Shown: positions 42,388 through 52,654 of the stretch, piece after piece
Layout: the number at the start of each line of letters is the position of its first letter
Numbering within the stretch: position 1 is the first letter of the stretch
The notes under the pieces: generated by a model
Told to the model about the DNA's origin: nothing
What the model saw: only the letters and a program-made list of their open reading frames with translations
The model's database searches: none
Assembly (NCBI GenBank): GCA_019637105.1
Contig: JAHBWF010000027.1
Location: forward strand, 1-61,807
Direction: 5' to 3'
From: Labilithrix sp.
GTDB taxonomy: Bacteria > Myxococcota_A > Polyangia > Polyangiales > Polyangiaceae
Length of the DNA stretch: 61,807 nucleotides
Position numbers and translations under genes: made by a program

Positions 42388-43041
42388 GTGAAATACGTCA
42401 TGGCCTTCAGCGGCAGCCGTCGCGGCCCCGCGAGGCTCGCGGAGGGAGCGACGCGCGCGTCGGTGGCGGCCGAGTGCCGTGAGGCCGCCCTCGAGCTCAT
42501 GGCCGGCATCGCGGAGGGCTGGGACAAGGGCGACCTCGCGCGGTGGCTCGCCGGACCGTACGCGCGCGCCACGCGCCACTGCCGCCACGGCGAGCGCACC
42601 GTGGCCGAGCGCGCGGACGCCGGCGCGGCGGGCGGCTCGGTCTCGGCCGCGGCGATCCAGGCGCTCCTCACGAGCACGCGCGGGCGCTTGCTCGCCGCGC
42701 TCGAGAAGGCGGCGCTCGCCGGCGGCGCGCTCGCGTTCGCCGGCGAGATCGTCGAGCGCGGCTTCGTCCGGCGCGCGGTCGACGCGGACGGTGAAGACGC
42801 CTGGCTCCCGGTCGACGCGCCGCGCATGGGCCTCCGCGACCGGGTGAGCGCGCTCTTCGTCGCCGACTACCTCAACGCTCCGGAGGCGTACGCCGCGCTC
42901 TACGTCTGCCACCGCTGCGAGGAGGTGGTCTTCGACGACGACGCGCGGCAGCTCGGGATGTGCTGGCGGCACCGCCGCGCGTCCGGCATCGAGGTCCGCG
43001 CCGGCGAACGAGACGCGACCCGCGCGGCCGGCGACGGCTGA
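42388..43041 (+). CDS. Hypothetical protein with C-terminal CxxC...CxxH zinc-binding-like motif
   Basis: 217 residues from a GTG at 42388, with GGAGCGGGG a few bases upstream. There is no signal peptide. The Ala/Arg-rich body contains ECREAALELMAGIAEGWDKG and a helical core. Near the C-terminus, YVCHRCEEVVFDDDARQLG followed by CWRH provides CxxC and CxxH pairs about 15 residues apart, consistent with a small zinc ribbon. I do not recognise the family. It is divergent from the amino-acid transporter operon. Confidence 0.6.
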   Translation: MKYVMAFSGSRRGPARLAEGATRASVAAECREAALELMAGIAEGWDKGDLARWLAGPYARATRHCRHGERTVAERADAGAAGGSVSAAAIQALLTSTRGRLLAALEKAALAGGALAFAGEIVERGFVRRAVDADGEDAWLPVDAPRMGLRDRVSALFVADYLNAPEAYAALYVCHRCEEVVFDDDARQLGMCWRHRRASGIEVRAGERDATRAAGDG

Positions 43042-43144: not shown

Positions 43145-43208
43145 ATCGCGCGCGGGACGCGTGTTTCCGCGAGCGCCGCGTCGCGCCCCGCACTACCCTC
43201 GGGTCGAG

Positions 43209-43910
43209 TTGCGCAACGGAGGCACGACGCGGAGAGCGACGCCCGGCGCGCGGTGGGTCGTACGGACCGCCGGCGCCTCGCTCGTCGTCGCCGCGAGCGT
43301 CACGGCGAGCGACGCGCGCGCCGACTTCGACTTCCAGGTCGCGACGACGGTGAGCGGCGCGTGGCTCCGGGAGACGCCGGACTTCGACGCGAAGGGCGTG
43401 ACGACGAGCGCGCGCGACATCCGCGCGGGGCGCGTGCGGACGAGCGGGGGCCTCGCGATGATCGGCTTCGGCGGCGACGTCGATCTCACGATCGACGATC
43501 GCTGGAAGGTGCCGCTCTTCGGCGGGGCCTTCTTCTGGTCGGTCGGCGCCTACGACTCCACGATCACGAGCTTCGACGGCTCGATCGCGCGGCTGCGGCC
43601 CTGGTCCACCATGCGCGGCGACTTCCTCCTGCCGGGCGTCGGGCGCCGCTGGAAGCACCGGCGCAACATGTGGGCCGCCGCCGTCCGCACGGGGTTCTCG
43701 ATCGCGGCGATGGGCGGCAGCGTCGCGGCCGGGGCGGAGACCGCGCCGCTCGAGATGTCGGCCGTGACGTTCCTCCTGCAGCTCGAGCTCGAGGCGTGCC
43801 GTCGCCTCGACCCCTCGACGCGCGCGTGCCTCCAGGTGGTCCCGCGCCTCTACGAGCACCAGCTCTTGAACGGCTTGACCTTCGGCCTTCGCATGGAGTG
43901 GGGACGATGA
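43209..43910 (+). CDS. Exported outer-membrane-type protein, first gene of ATP-grasp operon
   Basis: 233 residues from a TTG at 43209. This start is chosen because TACCCT lies nine bases upstream, as in other genes here, and it gives a normal signal peptide (VVRTAGASLVVAASVTASDARAD). A GTG at 43161 would add 16 residues. The mature part is rich in alternating strands (GGLAMIGFGGDVDLTIDDRWKV, GAFFWSVGAYDSTI, FLLQLELEACRR, LLNGLTFGLRMEWGR) and ends like an outer-membrane barrel. No homologue is recognised. Its stop overlaps the next start (ATGA), so it is translationally coupled to the lipoprotein gene. Confidence 0.65.
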   Translation: MRNGGTTRRATPGARWVVRTAGASLVVAASVTASDARADFDFQVATTVSGAWLRETPDFDAKGVTTSARDIRAGRVRTSGGLAMIGFGGDVDLTIDDRWKVPLFGGAFFWSVGAYDSTITSFDGSIARLRPWSTMRGDFLLPGVGRRWKHRRNMWAAAVRTGFSIAAMGGSVAAGAETAPLEMSAVTFLLQLELEACRRLDPSTRACLQVVPRLYEHQLLNGLTFGLRMEWGR

Positions 43911-45004
43911 CGACGAAGCGGCTCCTGGCACTCGGGGCGAGCGTCGCGCTCGCGCTCGGCTCCCTCGCGGGGTGCGGCTCGGACGGCGGCGGCCAGCGAG
44001 AGGAGATCGGCCTCGGCGCGGATCCGGCGCTCCCGCCGCGGACGGCCTCGGTGGTGGTGGACGGGTGCGTGCTCGACACCTGGAGCCGCGCGACCCTGGC
44101 GGGCGCCGGCGCGAAGCGTGTCCTCCGCGGCGGCGAGGTCATCCTGCTGTGCCTCGTCCCGCGCGAGGACGGGACGGTGGGCCCGCGCGATCCGAGCGCG
44201 CGTACGGCGCTCTCGGCGCTCGCGCAGGACCTCAAGCGCGACGGCTACCGCGTCCACCTCGGCGTGGCGTTCACCGACGAGAGCGGGCAGCGCTACGACG
44301 GCCAGCAGACCCGGGCCTTCCTCCAGAGCCCGGAGTGGCGTCGGCGCCTGGCGGAGACGCTCCCGCTCGTGATCGAGCCGGCGGACGGCGTGGAGCTCGA
44401 TCTCCAGCGCCTCCCCGACGACGCCCGCCCGTTCGTCACGGCGCTCGTCGCCGAGCTCGCCGCGGTCGTCCGCCCGGCGCGGCGCCTCAACGTCTTCGTC
44501 CCGCCGTCGGTGGCGGCGCCGAGCGACCTTCCGGGCGGCGAGGCGTTCGCGCGCCGGGAGCTCGCGCCCCACGTCGACCGCATGCGCATCATGACGCTCG
44601 ACTTCTCGGAGCGCGAGCCCGGGCCGACGATCGATCCGGGCTGGGCGGTCGACGCGGTCCGCCTCGCCAAGGGCGATTTCCCCCGCGTGGACGTCTCGTA
44701 TCCGCTCTACGGGACGGACTTCGGACCGCGCGGCCGGCGGCCCGTCCTCTACCACGACGCGATCGCCATCGCGACGCTCGCGCGCGCGCCGATCGAGCGC
44801 GGACCGACCGGCGCGCCGTTCCTCCGCTACGTCGCCTTCGGCGACGAGCCGCACCAGCTCTGGTTCGACGACGCGGAGTCGACCGCGCGCGCGCTCGGCG
44901 CGTGGAGCGCCGACGTGCTCCCGCTCGACGTCGGCGTCCTCTTCTACGGCCTCGGCGCCGAGGACCCCGCGTTGTTCGAGCGCCTCGGCGCGAGGATGCT
45001 TTGA
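43907..45004 (+). CDS. Lipoprotein with degenerate GH18-like TIM-barrel domain
   Basis: 365 residues. The leader ends at SLAGC, a good lipobox. The body resembles a family 18 glycoside hydrolase or YaaH-like barrel: LKRDGYRVHLGVAF, then DGVELDLQRLP (about 160-170), then RRLNVFVPPSV, VDRMRIMTLDFSE and PRVDVSYPLYGTDFG. In active GH18 enzymes the strand-4 motif is DGxDxDxE. Here the second aspartate is Glu and the catalytic Glu is Gln, so hydrolysis is doubtful and a binding or remodelled activity is more likely. It starts within the stop of the barrel gene and ends within the start of the ATP-grasp gene. Confidence 0.65.
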   Translation: MTTKRLLALGASVALALGSLAGCGSDGGGQREEIGLGADPALPPRTASVVVDGCVLDTWSRATLAGAGAKRVLRGGEVILLCLVPREDGTVGPRDPSARTALSALAQDLKRDGYRVHLGVAFTDESGQRYDGQQTRAFLQSPEWRRRLAETLPLVIEPADGVELDLQRLPDDARPFVTALVAELAAVVRPARRLNVFVPPSVAAPSDLPGGEAFARRELAPHVDRMRIMTLDFSEREPGPTIDPGWAVDAVRLAKGDFPRVDVSYPLYGTDFGPRGRRPVLYHDAIAIATLARAPIERGPTGAPFLRYVAFGDEPHQLWFDDAESTARALGAWSADVLPLDVGVLFYGLGAEDPALFERLGARML

Positions 45005-46374
45005 CCGCCCCCCTCGCGCGCGTGGAGGCGCTGCCGGTGGCCGAGCCGCTCCGCCTGCCGTCGCTCGAGCGCGAGCTCGTGCACCGCTGGCTCGTCTGGG
45101 ACGCGTGGGTCGGCGGGAAGCGCCGCGTCGATCTGCACCCGCTGGTCCTCTCGGCGGCGGCGCACCGGGACGCCGTCCGCGTCGCCGAGCGGGCCTGGGC
45201 GCTCGTCTCGGCGGCCGCCGACCGCGCGGCCTCCGATCCGGAAGAGCGCGCGCGCTACCGGCTGCACCCGGACGTCGAGCGCCTCGCCGCCGCGTCGCGC
45301 GCGGGCGGCGACGCAGGCTCGGTCGCGCGGGTCGATCTGCTCCTCCGCGAGGACGGCCGCTTCGTCGCGTGCGAGGTGAACGCCGACTGTCCGGGCGGCT
45401 ACAACGAGACGCTCGCCCTGCCGCGGCTGGCGCGCGCCGCGGGCCTCGCGCGCGGACTCGCGGGCCCGCTCCGCGATCCCACGTTCGTCGCCGGCCGCCT
45501 CGCCGATCGGCTGGTGGAGCGATCGGGCGGGCCGGGCTCTCCGCGCGGCGTCGTCGCGCTCGCGTACGCGACGGCCTACGCGGAGGACCTCCAGGTGTGC
45601 GCGCTGCTCGAGCGCCTGGTCCGCGAACGCGGAGGTCGCGCGGTCCGCGTGAGCCCCACCGCGCTCGTCGAGGCGGCCGGCGGCGGCGTGGCCGTCCGCG
45701 GGGAGCGGGTCGCCGCGCTCTACCGCTTCTACCCGGTCGAGTGGATGGCCGGGCAGGGGAACGTCGCCGCGCTCGCGCGGGCGACGGCCGCGGGCGCCCT
45801 CGCGTCGTTGTCGAGCTTCGCGTGCATCCACGCGCAGTCGAAGCTGGCGATGGCGCGGGCGTTCGCGCACGACCGCGCGGCCGCCGCCGAGGTCTTCCCG
45901 GAGACCGTCGCCTTCTCCGACCTCGAGCGGGGCGAGCTCGAGCGCGCGCGCGCGTCGTGGGTCGTGAAGCGCGATCTCTCGCGCGTCGGCGACCACGTCT
46001 TCGTCGGCGCGCTCACGAGCCCGGAGGAGTTCCGCGAGATCCTCGCGGCGGTCGCCGACGTCGAGCGCTGCTCCGGCGAGGCCGCCGCCCGCGCGCACGC
46101 GGTCGCGCCCGCGCCCGCCGGGCCGAGCCTCGGCGCGAACGACGCGGGGCAGGCGTGGATCGCGCAGCGGTTCGTCCCGCAGGCGCCGCTGGCGACGCCG
46201 TGGGGGACGCGCCTGGTCACGCTCGGCGTCTACCTGATGGACGGCGCCTTCGCGGGGTACTTCGCGCGCCTCTCGCCGACGTCGCACTGCTCGCACGACG
46301 CCCTCGCGCTGCCGGTCTTCGTCGAGGACGCGTCGGCGGTCGCCGCCCGCGCTCCGCTGGAGGCCGCGCCGTGA
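45001..46374 (+). CDS. Glutathionylspermidine-synthase-like ATP-grasp ligase
   Basis: 457 residues from a TTG at 45001 that overlaps the previous stop (TTGA); a GTG at 45022 is an alternative. The central motif RVDLLLREDGRFVACEVNADCPGG (split here by eye as RVDLL and EVNAD, E125 and N127) matches the R-x-D and E-x-N-x-D metal/ATP site of glutathionylspermidine synthase-like ligases. SWVVKRDLSRVGDHVFVG (K323) matches the ATP-binding loop. The C-terminal WIAQRFVP, TLGVYLMDGAFAGYFARLS fits the family end. Such enzymes join a carboxylate to an amine with ATP hydrolysis. No amidase domain is present. The acceptor is unknown; the exported neighbours suggest a modification of an envelope component or a secreted small molecule. 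Confidence 0.8.
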   Translation: MTAPLARVEALPVAEPLRLPSLERELVHRWLVWDAWVGGKRRVDLHPLVLSAAAHRDAVRVAERAWALVSAAADRAASDPEERARYRLHPDVERLAAASRAGGDAGSVARVDLLLREDGRFVACEVNADCPGGYNETLALPRLARAAGLARGLAGPLRDPTFVAGRLADRLVERSGGPGSPRGVVALAYATAYAEDLQVCALLERLVRERGGRAVRVSPTALVEAAGGGVAVRGERVAALYRFYPVEWMAGQGNVAALARATAAGALASLSSFACIHAQSKLAMARAFAHDRAAAAEVFPETVAFSDLERGELERARASWVVKRDLSRVGDHVFVGALTSPEEFREILAAVADVERCSGEAAARAHAVAPAPAGPSLGANDAGQAWIAQRFVPQAPLATPWGTRLVTLGVYLMDGAFAGYFARLSPTSHCSHDALALPVFVEDASAVAARAPLEAAP

Positions 46375-47405
46375 GGGCGCGCCTGGGCATCCTCCCCGTC
46401 GCGCTCGTCGGCGTGACCGGCTGCGGCCTCCGCCCGTGGACGCCCTCGGTCAGCGTGGCGTTCTGGTCGGAGGACGTCCCCGCGCTGCGCGAGTACGAGG
46501 TCCCGTCGTCGTCGAGCCTCGCGGCCCGCTGGCAGCTCGCGCCGGAGAGCCCGTGGGCGCGCTACTACAAGGGCACGCTCGTCTCGGCGGCCGATCCGAT
46601 GGCGGGTCACGCCGCGCTGCCCGACGTGCAGCGCCTCGAGGTCGCGCGCGAAGCGGCCGCGGCCGCGGCGCACGTCGCGGCGGTCGGGCTCCCGGCGGAC
46701 ACGCTCTGGATCGTCGATCTCCGCGGCGCGGCGTCCGCCGCGTTCGCGGCGCGCCTGAGCCGCGACGCGCGCGAGCCGATCGCGCCCGTCGTGACGTTCA
46801 ACAACTGGCCCGCGCACGACGGCCTCGTCCCGGCCGACGAGACGCTCGCCGGCTTGATCGCGTTCTCGCCGCGCCTCCCTCCGCCCGAGGCGAACGCGCT
46901 CGAGCGGGCGCACCCCGTGTTCCTGCTCGACTCGTGGCGCCTCGCGTATCGCTTCGACGATCCCGGCGACGAGACGTTCGACAACCGCTACATGCTGACG
47001 CCGACCGATCTCCCGGACGCGGAGACGTTGCGCGCGCGCGCCGTCACGCGCGTCGTCTACGTCGTCGAGGACCTCGACGACGCCGAGGTCGAAGAGGACG
47101 ACCTCCACGCGAGCTTCCGCGCGTGGCAGGCGGCGGGCATCGGCATCGCCGTCGTCGACCTCGCGTTCCTCAAGACCGTCCCGGCGCCGGTGAACGGCTC
47201 GTGGCCGGTCGACTGGGCCGCGCGCCTCGCCCCTCGCGGCTACTGGGCCCGCGAGCGCTACACGCTCGTCGACGATCCGTATTTCTACGCCCGCGCGCGC
47301 GCGGGCTTCGGCCTCGCCTTCGGCCGTCCGTTCATCCACCCCGGCTACCGCTGGGGCCCCGGCCGGCCGGGGGGCGGGGGCGGCGGCCACGGCGGCGGCG
47401 GCTGA
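46371..47405 (+). CDS. Lipoprotein with Gly/His-rich tail, unknown family
   Basis: 344 residues from a GTG that overlaps the ATP-grasp stop (GTGA). The leader ends LVGVTGC. The body contains VSVAFWSEDVPALREYEVPSSS, DTLWIVDLRGAASAAFAARLS, PVVTFNNWPAHDGLVP, PVFLLDSWRLAYRFDDPGDETFDNRY (part) and a strongly acidic VVEDLDDAEVEEDDLH. It ends FIHPGYRWGPGRPGG and then a run of glycines with one histidine. No catalytic signature is recognised. The pattern of alternating strands and helices could be another alpha/beta barrel. It is the last gene of the coupled four-gene set. Confidence 0.6.
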   Translation: MRARLGILPVALVGVTGCGLRPWTPSVSVAFWSEDVPALREYEVPSSSSLAARWQLAPESPWARYYKGTLVSAADPMAGHAALPDVQRLEVAREAAAAAAHVAAVGLPADTLWIVDLRGAASAAFAARLSRDAREPIAPVVTFNNWPAHDGLVPADETLAGLIAFSPRLPPPEANALERAHPVFLLDSWRLAYRFDDPGDETFDNRYMLTPTDLPDAETLRARAVTRVVYVVEDLDDAEVEEDDLHASFRAWQAAGIGIAVVDLAFLKTVPAPVNGSWPVDWAARLAPRGYWARERYTLVDDPYFYARARAGFGLAFGRPFIHPGYRWGPGRPGGGGGGHGGGG

Positions 47406-47468: not shown

Positions 47469-47858
47469 ATGACGAAGAAGACCGACAGCGAATACAAGGC
47501 CGAGCTCACGCCCGAGCAGTACGAGATCACGCGCCGGAAGGGGACGGAGCGCGCGTTCACCGGGAAGTACTGGGACTGCCACGACGCGGGGACGTACCGG
47601 TGCGTCTGCTGCGGCGCCGAGCTCTTCCGCTCCGAGGACAAGTTCGATTCGGGCAGCGGGTGGCCGAGCTTCACGCAACCCGCGCACGAGGGGAACGTCG
47701 CCACGGAGGAGGACCGCTCGCACTTCATGGTCCGCACCGAGGTCACGTGCTCGCAGTGCGGCGCGCACCTCGGCCACGTCTTCCCCGACGGCCCGCCGGA
47801 TCGCGGGGGGCTGCGCTACTGCATCAACTCGGCGTCCCTCGACCTCAAGAAGGCGTGA
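47469..47858 (+). CDS. msrB: Peptide methionine-R-sulfoxide reductase MsrB
   Basis: 129 residues, the standard length for a single-domain MsrB. It repairs methionine-R-sulfoxide in proteins using thioredoxin. Catalytic Cys118 lies in RYCINSASL. Two CxxC pairs (CVCC and CSQC) form the structural zinc site. [10 protein letters not shown] and [10 protein letters not shown] are signature motifs. TATGCT at 47434-47439 could be its -10, with a leader of about 25 nt and no clear Shine-Dalgarno. There is no signal peptide, so it acts in the cytoplasm. MsrA is not fused. Confidence 0.97.
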
Positions 47859-49422: not shown

Positions 49423-52400
49423 CTACTTCAGCGCGAGCTTCTGCACGCCCCAGTAGCCGGTGGAGAGGTAGAGATCGCCGCCCTGGCGCGAGATGGCGCT
49501 CGGCCACCACCCGCGCGTGCGCGCGAACTGCGAGTACACCGGCGCCTGGTTCGGCGTGAGCTTGTAGATGTCGAGGCCGACCTGGCCCCAGCCCGACGTG
49601 ATGATGGCGCGGTCGCCCTCGACGTCGACGAGCCAGCCCCAGCCGTCCTTCGCCGCCGACGCGCGGTCCACCGGCTTCTTCGGGTCGGTGAGGTCGAGCT
49701 CGTGGAGCTTCACGCTGCTCGAGCCGTTCGGGTTCGCCTGGTTCGGCTGCGTGTACTCCTGCGCGCTCATGTACGCTTTGTCGCCGCGCACGAACACGTT
49801 GCCGACCCAGCCGTCGATGAGCGTGCTCGACTGGAGGTAGGCCTTGCCGTCCTTGATCCGGGCGACGGCGATCTCGTCCTTCGGCGCGTTGGAGTAGCCG
49901 TCGTACCAGCGGTAGTCGACGAAGTAGAGGAGCGACGGATCGGTCTCGCTCGCGCCGACGAGCAGGCCCGGGACGTTGATGCGCTTGCCGACCTTCGGGT
50001 TCGCGCGATCGGAGAGATCGATCTGGTCGAGGTAGTAGCGGACCCAGTACGTCTGCTGCGGGCCGTTCGGATCGGGGTTCGCGATCGGCTTCGACTTCCA
50101 CTCGTAGTGCGTCGTGTACAGCGTGTCGCCGACGACCTTCATGTTGCCCCACCACGAGTCGGTGTCGGGCGTGATGGTGGTCGAGGTGAGCTTCGGCGCG
50201 TTCGGGTCCGAGATGTCGACGACGTAGAGCTTCTGGTCGAACTCGTAGTCGCCGGTGTTCGGGTTGTACGAGCCGCGCGTGCGGCGGAAGGCGAGGGCGT
50301 CGCCCCCGACCTGAACGGCGTTCGAGCCGTCGTACCAGTCCCAGTAGTAGCAGCCGCCCCACCACGACCAGTACGAGCCGTTGGTCTCCTGCGGCAGCTC
50401 GATCGAGCCCAGCGGCGTCGCGCCGCCGTTCGCCAGATCGACGACCTGGACGCGCGGCGTCGCGTACCAGGGGCCGGAGCTCCCGGGCTTCGGGTAGAGC
50501 GTCGTCACGACGTACGCGAGGTCGCCGTTGCGGAAGACGCGGGCGTCGGAGCCGTCGATCGCGAGCGACGGCGCGCCGGTCGCCGCGACGTTCTCCTCGG
50601 CGTTCGCGATCGGCAGGACGCGGAGCTCGCTCTTCCGGTTGTCGTAGCCCCACCAGTCGGTGGAGAGCTGGGCGATCGTCGCGCCGTTGGGCTCGGCCGA
50701 GACGACGTTCCGCGCCAGGGTGAGCTCCTTGACGACCTTCGGGCTGTTGCGGTTCGAGTAGTCGATGACGCTGAGCGCCTGATCCGAGAGCGAGACCAGG
50801 CGATTCTTCACGAAGACGCCGCGCTCGACCCAGCCCTTCGACTTGGCCGCGCCCTTCGTCGTGATCGCGCCGGTGTCGTACTCGATCAGCTGGACGCCGT
50901 TCATGTACTCGTACGTCGACGAGCTCCACCCGCTGAAGGGGAGGACGACGAGCTTCTTCTCGTCGTCGCGGGTGAACGCCTTGAAGGTGCCGGCCGCGGG
51001 CGTCCACGCCCAGCCGTCGCCGAACGTCGAGGTGCCGATGACCGACGGCTGCGTCGGGTCGGAGACGTCGAGCAGGCGGAGCGCGACCTTGCTCGAGGAG
51101 TAGCCGCTGCCGTACTCGTTGCCGAGGGCGAAGAGGCGATCGGCGCCCATCGGCATGAAGAGCCAGACGGCGCCGTTGATGTTCGTCGAGCCCGCGAGCG
51201 CCGGCGCCGCCGGGTTCGAGAGGTCGTAGATCTGGACGGGCGTGGGCGCCTGCTGCCCGCTCTCCGACCACGCGCCTTCGCGCGGCGAGAGGTACATGCG
51301 CTTGTGGGCGAAGCGCGCGGTGGCGGCCCAGCCCTGCGACGCGATGTCGAGCGTGGCGAGCTTCACCGGCGCGGCGGGGTTCGTGAAGTCGACGGTCGTG
51401 AGCTTGTAGCCCCCCTGGCCGTTGCAGTAGCCGTAGTCGGCCCCGGCGCAGGTGATCACCGAGGCCGTGTCGCCGTCGAGGTCGATGTTCCACCGCCCGT
51501 TGTCGGCGCTCCAGCCGTTGAGGAGGCCGTCGACCTCGAACGAGCCCGTCGGGATGATGCTCCCGTCGAGATCCGAGAACACGAAGTAGTCGATCGCGCT
51601 CTTGCCGGTCGGCTGCTTCTGCCCCGACCCGTTGTCGGCGAGGACGTCGTGCGCCATCAGGATCGAGCTCGGCGTCACGTTGAAGGCGCCGGAGTAGCCG
51701 TCGAACTCCTTGGTGTCGGCGAGGACGGGCGCGGACTTGCCGAACGTGACGCTCGAGATGACGACCTTGCTCGCGCCGCCGTAGTACCCCATGCCCGGGT
51801 AGGCGGCGTCGGACGTCGCGCCGCCGTAGTAGCCGCCGTACCAGCCGCCGTAGCTCCAGCCGTAGTCCTCGCTCACGATGAAGAGGTTCTTGCCGACGAC
51901 GCGCATGTCGCGCGCCCAGCCCTTGACCTGGACCTCGCCCACGGCCTTCATGTTCGCGGGATCGCGCGCGTCGACGGTGCGGACCACCGAGCCGTGGAAC
52001 GGCGAGCCGTCGGGCGCGTTGCCGTACCAGTCCCCGACCACCATCGTGGCGACGCCGTCGCGGACGAACATCTCGACCGGCGTGCCGAAGACGGGCGCCC
52101 GGCCGAGCAGCTTGGGATCGTCGGCGTTCGTGATGTCGAACACCATGAGCCCTCGGTAGCTGTTGAGGAAGTAGAGGCGATCGCCGTCGACGCGGTAGAT
52201 GTCCGTCTCCTCCGGCTTCGCCAGCGCGATCGCGGCCGGGCTCCCGCCCGACGGCGCCGCGCTGTCGTTGCCCGACTCGGCGCTGCCGCGTCCGCCGCTG
52301 AAGGAGCCGCCGGCGTGGCCGACGGGGGGCGCCGATTCGAACTCGGTCTGGCCCTCCTCGCGCCCTTGGCTCGCGGGGGTGCCGTCGTCGCTGCATCCGG

Positions 52401-52470
52401 CGACGGACGGGGCGAGCGCGGCGAGGAGGGTGAGGCTGCTGACGGCGAGGAGGCGGGTCTTCGCGAACAT
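49423..52470 (-). CDS. Secreted beta-propeller lipoprotein (large)
   Basis: 1015 residues from an ATG at 52470; upstream in-frame ATGs at 52524 and 52578 would lengthen the leader unnaturally. The signal peptide ends at PSVAGC, a lipobox. Repeating blade motifs such as DITNADDPKLLGR, DLSNPAAPALAGST, DVSDPTQPSVIGTS, DLTDPKKPVD and DISDPNAPKLTS, about 45-60 residues apart, indicate two beta-propeller-like domains of the LVIVD/Beta_propel type. Tyr/Gly/Trp-rich loops (YGWSYGGWYGGYYGG) stand out. No catalytic residues are visible. It is probably a surface-exposed scaffold. It shares style with the second propeller gene at 54385-56298. Confidence 0.75.
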   Translation of the reverse strand: MFAKTRLLAVSSLTLLAALAPSVAGCSDDGTPASQGREEGQTEFESAPPVGHAGGSFSGGRGSAESGNDSAAPSGGSPAAIALAKPEETDIYRVDGDRLYFLNSYRGLMVFDITNADDPKLLGRAPVFGTPVEMFVRDGVATMVVGDWYGNAPDGSPFHGSVVRTVDARDPANMKAVGEVQVKGWARDMRVVGKNLFIVSEDYGWSYGGWYGGYYGGATSDAAYPGMGYYGGASKVVISSVTFGKSAPVLADTKEFDGYSGAFNVTPSSILMAHDVLADNGSGQKQPTGKSAIDYFVFSDLDGSIIPTGSFEVDGLLNGWSADNGRWNIDLDGDTASVITCAGADYGYCNGQGGYKLTTVDFTNPAAPVKLATLDIASQGWAATARFAHKRMYLSPREGAWSESGQQAPTPVQIYDLSNPAAPALAGSTNINGAVWLFMPMGADRLFALGNEYGSGYSSSKVALRLLDVSDPTQPSVIGTSTFGDGWAWTPAAGTFKAFTRDDEKKLVVLPFSGWSSSTYEYMNGVQLIEYDTGAITTKGAAKSKGWVERGVFVKNRLVSLSDQALSVIDYSNRNSPKVVKELTLARNVVSAEPNGATIAQLSTDWWGYDNRKSELRVLPIANAEENVAATGAPSLAIDGSDARVFRNGDLAYVVTTLYPKPGSSGPWYATPRVQVVDLANGGATPLGSIELPQETNGSYWSWWGGCYYWDWYDGSNAVQVGGDALAFRRTRGSYNPNTGDYEFDQKLYVVDISDPNAPKLTSTTITPDTDSWWGNMKVVGDTLYTTHYEWKSKPIANPDPNGPQQTYWVRYYLDQIDLSDRANPKVGKRINVPGLLVGASETDPSLLYFVDYRWYDGYSNAPKDEIAVARIKDGKAYLQSSTLIDGWVGNVFVRGDKAYMSAQEYTQPNQANPNGSSSVKLHELDLTDPKKPVDRASAAKDGWGWLVDVEGDRAIITSGWGQVGLDIYKLTPNQAPVYSQFARTRGWWPSAISRQGGDLYLSTGYWGVQKLALK

Positions 52471-52654
52471 GCCGCCCACATGAGCACGGAGCGTGCCGCG
52501 GCACGGGCGGGTAAAATGGGACATGGTTTCATTGACTTGAGATCCAAGTGGCGCAGTCGAGATGTGTGCCACTGGCACAGGCCCTCGGGCGCGTGGACCA
52601 GGCGCGCGGCGAGCGCGCCGCGGCGGAAGGCGGCTAAAGTAGAGTCGGCCTGGG

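Follow-up and report, generated by a model that had tools for sequence, protein, structure and literature searches.

A YgiC-type ligase and a Gly-Gly-tailed lipoprotein in a conserved Myxococcota gene cassette: candidates for C-terminal amidation of an envelope protein

The window studied here, 61,807 nucleotides of a contig from Labilithrix sp. of the Myxococcota (JAHBWF010000027.1), carries a cassette of four forward-strand genes, A to D, in which an ATP-grasp ligase (C) is encoded just ahead of a lipoprotein (D) whose C-terminal tail ends in Gly-Gly. Judged by sequence comparison, C probably amidates the C-terminal tail of the D protein encoded alongside it, the amine most likely being a polyamine, and D would then be exported to the envelope. 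The D tail as the substrate of C is well supported but unproven. We place the cassette within the YgiB-YgiC kind, as a variant and not as a separate system. The E. coli YgiB-YgiC system is poorly understood, and the Myxococcota set is an unusual relative of it, with the ligase and the tail kept on a different lipoprotein core. Since these two are kept while the core differs, the tail is the feature that comes out as constant. The cassette is valuable for singling out the tail as probable substrate, which makes a hypothesis testable: that polyamines may be attached by bacteria to the C-terminal ends of their envelope lipoproteins. This would, if true, be a protein modification carried by phages too, and it would explain many genes annotated as glutathionylspermidine synthase. 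Neither the cassette nor a role of the tail as ligase substrate is described in the open-access literature searched; an earlier account of the tail as a YgiC substrate is possible, and no paper found there names a protein substrate of YgiC or YjfC.

Ligase C and the tail of lipoprotein D

The genes are open reading frames (ORFs) at 43209..43910 (A, TTG start, with an alternative GTG start at 43161), 43907..45004 (B, ATG start), 45001..46374 (C, TTG start) and 46371..47405 (D, GTG start). All three junctions are 4-nucleotide overlaps: ATGA at 43907-43910, TTGA at 45001-45004 and GTGA at 46371-46374. An earlier, sequence-only reading of the window had described four genes overlapping in this way, and the ORFs bear it out. 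It had also tied a ligase without an export signal to exported partners, and this is supported: by eye, C has neither an export signal nor a lipobox, A has a signal-peptide-like N terminus, and B and D have lipoboxes. The identification of B and D as lipoproteins holds as well. Their lipobox-like N termini are LAGC in B (43964..43975, Cys23) and VTGC in D (46413..46424, Cys18), and the cysteine is invariant in alignments of 20 B and 22 D sequences.

C groups by sequence with the peptide-amine ligases YgiC and YjfC (GspS type) as a divergent member, and amide ligase activity is predicted for it. The Pfam ATP-grasp family GSP_synth (PF03738), which C has in common with the GspS domain of GspSA, matches 22 of 23 C sequences at E<=1e-3, with a best value of 2e-15. 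Window C alone gives E 3.7e-6 and 26.8 bits, under the 29.3-bit curated cut-off, and a PF03738 search of the window's own genome returns no match at E<=1e-3; C itself is found once in that genome (E<=0.001). By hhalign, a profile of C aligns to E. coli YgiC over 304 columns (E 6.1e-8), and the best PDB match of the profile is again YgiC (7uk8, E 0.013). Unlike GspSA, C contains no amidase domain detectable in a Pfam scan, and it has CPGGxNE where YgiC has TPTSLYE (the sequence compared there is YgiC, not GspSA).

The ligase alignment and tree comprise 67 sequences, namely 23 window-type ligases, 33 from other Myxococcota and 11 from outside. Seven loci with ligase-profile matches and no D (L116, L118, L119, L120, L125, L126 and L127) were left out; the one scanned, L118, is CP_ATPgrasp_2. 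The window-type ligases form one clade with support 1.0. Nine catalytic columns of YgiC (R100, D102, E115, N117, D119, K267, K302, Q336 and R366) are kept in all 23 window-type and all 33 other Myxococcota ligases, and in 10 or 11 of the 11 outside ones. The first five are R110, D112, E125, N127 and D129 of C, in an RxD...ExNAD segment at 45328..45387 that is invariant in the 23 sequences. K302 corresponds to K323 of C (45967..45969), also invariant in the 23, and the column is Lys in 23/23, 33/33 and 10/11 of the three groups. E125, N127, D129 and K323 are the EVNAD and K323 features that the sequence-only reading had picked out, and the ATP-grasp residues, on whose absence that reading would have fallen, are intact in an alignment that includes the window.

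D (46371..47405) is modelled by AlphaFold2 as a confident alpha/beta core followed by a disordered, Gly-rich C-terminal tail, which is the proposed substrate of C. Foldseek and VIA-align assign no fold to the model. The 22 D sequences have no Pfam match better than E 0.21 and no match to DUF1190 (PF06693) at E<=0.5, and hhalign produces no alignment of D with YgiB (probability 0.3%). These 22 sequences, window included, underlie all the tail counts; rows were left out for L020, where the ORF ends early near a contig end, L025, where it is open at the contig end, and L024, where no D was found. The chain ends in Gly in 22/22 and in Gly-Gly in 21/22, and this end stays constant while tail length varies. 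In the window, the terminal Gly-Gly, the proposed amidation site, is at 47397..47402, and it is preceded by the tail motif RAGFG (residues 310-314, 47298..47312). An RxG[FY]G motif lies within the last 65 residues of 18 of the 22, the other four having HGGFG or LGGFG. GFG occurs in the last 40 residues of 21 of 22 D proteins, against an average of 7.2 for shuffled tails; the corresponding average for the Gly-Gly end is 2.7 with shuffled 40-residue tails, and none of 2000 shuffles reaches either observed count, figures that do not amount to a probability because the D rows are related to each other. As controls, strict RxG[FY]G is present in 0/39 other coding sequences (CDS) of plasmid and E. 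coli loci, 0/23 C, 0/20 B and 1/15 A, and Gly-Gly ends are present in none of these four sets.

The composition of the tail allows another purpose. The window tail is Gly/His-rich, and DUF1190 is called a metal-chelating lipoprotein by Ravi et al. 2024 (PMC11237479), so the segment might chelate metal or serve in adhesion while C modifies something else. We consider this very improbable. The number and place of His residues vary among D proteins, and the last 20 residues of the L006 and L019 proteins contain none, whereas GFG and the terminal Gly are kept.

The same tail beside other YgiC-type ligases

The DUF1190 proteins YgiB and YjfM of E. coli end in RGG[FY]G...GG, the end of YjfM being RGGYGRSSSARGHWGG. 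The ygiB-ygiC pair consists of a DUF1190 protein and a ligase, and yjfL-yjfM-yjfC adds DUF350 to a pair of this sort. Both are like the cassette in setting a GSP-type ligase, with the same catalytic residues, beside a protein with such an end, and C and D form just such a pair, a ligase adjoining a lipoprotein with an RxG[FY]G...GG tail. The cassette differs in that D is not a DUF1190 protein, the ligase is distant, the order runs from ligase to tailed protein, and A and B are extra. A search of the window's genome (about 91.5% complete) returns no match to DUF350 (PF03994). PMC11237479 places GSP-related ATP-grasp proteins with DUF350 and DUF1190 in PspA contexts. The sequence-only reading had held the four genes to be unlike ygiC/DUF1190 loci. 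The comparison does not bear this out: the RxGFG...GG tail of D is of the same kind as those of YgiB and YjfM, and two distant Myxococcota loci described below keep DUF350 beside the ligase, as does yjfL-yjfM-yjfC.

From 158 plasmid records with YgiC relatives, 13 (L144-L156) were chosen for diversity. Nine of these (L144-L150, L155 and L156) have an RxG[FY]G tail on a gene near the ligase, which ends in Ser in L156 and in Gly in the rest. The L154 plasmid, with a truncated ligase, has no tailed gene. The tailed partners in L148 (Arthrobacter) and L150 (Acinetobacter) have no Pfam match, DUF1190 included. Because tails recur near the ligase on scaffolds with no DUF1190 match, the tail, on this comparison, tracks the ligase more closely than it does its carrier protein. 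The 168-residue RGGFG-tailed protein at L148:2368-2874 is called a tRNA-dihydrouridine synthase by RefSeq; since neither Pfam nor NCBIfam gives a match, this name appears mistaken.

The ligase-tail pair seems to occur in phages too. We selected six of 136 phage records for diversity and examined five (59 CDS), leaving out L162 for having the gene layout of L153. Four of the five have the tail, three as strict RxG[FY]G and one as KGGFG, each time on one small, lipoprotein-like protein near the ligase (L157:2614-2997, L158:1890-2498, L159:2055-2591 and L160:2447-2998). Strict RxG[FY]G appears in none of the remaining CDS of the five loci. The layout common to L153 and L162 belongs to a plasmid record of Bacillus amyloliquefaciens and to Bacillus phage vB_BsuS_PJN02, respectively, and the L153 plasmid record may be a phage.

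A wider proposal, to which we give somewhat less than even weight, is that the GSP-type ligases of bacteria and phages constitute a general system for tagging protein C termini, in which a portable RGGFG...Gly-Gly tail on unrelated scaffolds (DUF1190, D and others) would be amidated with a polyamine or another amine. The Gly-Gly tails would be put to use much as in ubiquitin-like chemistry, with no ubiquitin fold and no E1/E2.

Distribution in Myxococcota

C was used to scan bacterial genomes, and the 24 loci recovered have titles of myxobacteria or Deltaproteobacteria. Gene presence at them was scored by tblastn of the window proteins (E<=1e-4): D turns up at 23, B at 21, A at 15, and the complete set at 14. 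The gene order is far beyond chance, and the C-D junction is a 4-nucleotide or 1-nucleotide overlap in 19 of the 23 measured. By this pattern of presence, C and D are the core, B is nearly constant and A is variable. B is present with A not found in L013, L014, L016 and L023, where a different ORF ends just ahead of B; neither A nor B is found by tblastn in L022, L025 and L015, the last being from Minicystis rosea DSM 24000, which has C and D; and the place of A is hidden by contig ends in L017 and L019. The earlier suggestion that the products are made as a unit fits these counts well, with D accompanying C at nearly every locus. Nor is the set confined to close relatives, which was the other point on which that suggestion could have failed: all four genes occur in L009 at 36-54% identity, on a contig that matches genome G307, from another family of the same order.

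We also surveyed 377 Myxococcota genomes with a ligase profile, a D profile and DUF1190. The ligase profile matches 60 genomes and the D profile 46, with 42 having both, 4 having D alone and 18 the ligase alone. At a ligase threshold of E<=1e-20 there are 51 ligase places in 41 genomes; D lies within 6 kb at 44 of the places, and 40 of the genomes contain it. In five of the seven remaining places D is on another contig (G011, G247, G288, G336 and G342); the G049 place (C78) looks like one fragment of a split gene, and for G210 the D profile finds nothing. DUF1190 is found in 0/377 of these genomes by a search that is positive in E. coli and Caulobacter. D appears to take the place of DUF1190 in Myxococcota.

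Homologous C and D occur together at distant Myxococcota loci (within L088-L123), where profiles of A and B find nothing. The ligase of L088 passes the GSP_synth cut-off. DUF350 lies directly upstream of the ligase in L088 and L110, the two loci tested, and the families to which these DUF350 genes belong have members at 3 and 13 of the 40 loci compared. Compared with yjfL-yjfM-yjfC, the distant loci have the same set of gene kinds in a different order. Their D-like proteins, of which 30 were examined, look by a crude hydropathy scan cytosolic or membrane-anchored, unlike window D, and have mostly RxG[ST][FWL]xR or [GTV]FG tails; 24 of the 30 end in Gly. In the group with [GTV]FG tails, that motif is mostly followed by P.PS, and the scan finds most members to have no N-terminal signal or anchor. 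The same scan places a hydrophobic segment ahead of the core in most of the other D-like proteins. If so, localisation changes among D-like proteins and a tail is retained. Within L091-L123, extra conserved families are found by the ligase, DUF350 and D-like genes; the product of L095:12318-13100 matches 2OG-Fe(II) oxygenases weakly, under the cut-off, and that of L112:8251-9147 has no meaningful Pfam match.

Proposed mechanism and the remaining genes

We infer that D is the substrate, that ligation precedes export, that the amine is a polyamine and that the product has a role in the envelope. C in the cytosol would bind the RxGFG...Gly-Gly tail of D, activate its terminal Gly carboxylate with ATP and couple the amine, most likely a polyamine. 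The modified D would then undergo export and lipidation at Cys18, so that the envelope displays a lipoprotein whose C-terminal tail is positively charged. It may act there alongside B, with its GH18 fold, and the probably exported A. The sequence-only reading had guessed at an amide conjugate, and D itself is most likely the protein on which it is made. The reaction would parallel that of GspS, which links glutathione through its Gly carboxylate to spermidine. RefSeq gives YgiC and YjfC the name peptide--spermidine ligase; their activity is taken from these names and from the cited title of Pederick et al. 2023. Because of these names, this title and four spermidine-synthase-family matches over cut-off in the window's genome, a polyamine is our default amine. 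YgiC is without glutathionylspermidine synthase activity according to PMC12506659, and spermidine joined to the C-terminal Gly of SUMO, described in PMC12270671 with a mass gain of about +127.15 Da, is an analogy only.

Several observations weigh against amidation of the D tail by C. A C-terminal change made ahead of Sec export requires that export be post-translational, and the Gly-rich tail could serve another purpose. Among plasmids, Trichormus L152 and Bacillus L153 have only weaker Gly/Ser-rich ends, as does phage HRDY3 (L161), and the Azospirillum plasmid L151 has no tailed gene near the ligase. In the Myxococcota survey, 18 of 60 ligase-profile genomes have no D, 17 of those 18 matches being weaker than E 1e-20. 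Neither a tailed neighbour nor D is found in the stretches read at three Myxococcota GSP_synth loci, L133, L134 (a stretch of only 4780 bases) and L135 (whose ligase frame contains a stop). Among the distant D-like proteins, only 19 of 30 have an RxG[ST][FWL]xR or RxG[FY]G tail, nine having [GTV]FG with no Arg and two neither, and six of the 30 end in Ser or Ala. Finally, other residues stand in place of YgiC E367 and D368 in every one of the 23 window-type ligases, and the amine may therefore not be spermidine. A rule that every GSP_synth locus has a tailed neighbour was tried and rejected, as it fails at L133, L134, L135, L151 and L154 (ligase truncated).

Ligases of this family with no tailed neighbour, and the GSP_synth relationship of C itself, are what might be expected if C made a soluble small-molecule conjugate, such as a glutathione- or peptide-polyamine, which D, B and A would sense or use. 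The tail would then be merely flexible, and flexible Gly-rich tails are common. We regard this as unlikely, given the exact Gly-Gly end in 21/22 D proteins despite varying tail length and the recurrence of this motif close to related ligases across several phyla and among phages, borne by scaffolds with no DUF1190 match.

Gene B (43907..45004) encodes a lipoprotein with a GH18-type TIM-barrel fold and an eroded catalytic motif. Its AlphaFold2 model has a mean pLDDT (predicted local distance difference test) of 87.6 and finds SleL (4s3j) as the best Foldseek match at E 4.5e-23. The label GH18-like given to it earlier was right as to fold; the Pfam GH18 match is only E 0.029. The GH18 catalytic motif is DxxDxDxE, with Glu as the acid. 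Window B has Gln at that place (position 167), and Glu is found there in 5 of 20 sequences, so the protein has the fold of SleL and other GH18 proteins and differs from them in that the catalytic Glu is not conserved. Because this position is eroded, we read B as a binding protein, probably a glycan binder rather than a hydrolase.

That the nearest fold to B is the peptidoglycan-cleaving SleL, and that the replaced E367-D368 pair suggests a different amine, could both be accommodated if the amine joined by C to the D tail belonged to a macromolecule or lipid (a protein lysine, a peptidoglycan precursor or an aminolipid) and D were thereby anchored covalently. We think this distinctly improbable, because no export signal is seen in C by eye, which would require an acceptor within reach of the cytosol, and because the nearest characterised relatives are named spermidine ligases. 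A polyamine on the D tail is still the reading we prefer.

The product of gene A (43209..43910) is probably exported and may be an outer-membrane barrel, as the sequence-only reading proposed; a 15-sequence alignment shows a conserved CRRLDPxxRxC segment, and these 15 members have no Pfam match better than E 0.26. Upstream of A, at 42388-43041 in the window, is a gene for a 217-residue protein with Cys pairs that belongs to no Pfam family and is found by tblastn in 6 of the 24 loci. Directly downstream of D, at 47469-47858, is a gene for MsrB (SelR domain), present in 5 of the 24 (L002-L005 and L011). Farther along, on the minus strand at 49423-52578, a 1051-residue ORF has a lipoprotein-like stretch near its N terminus.

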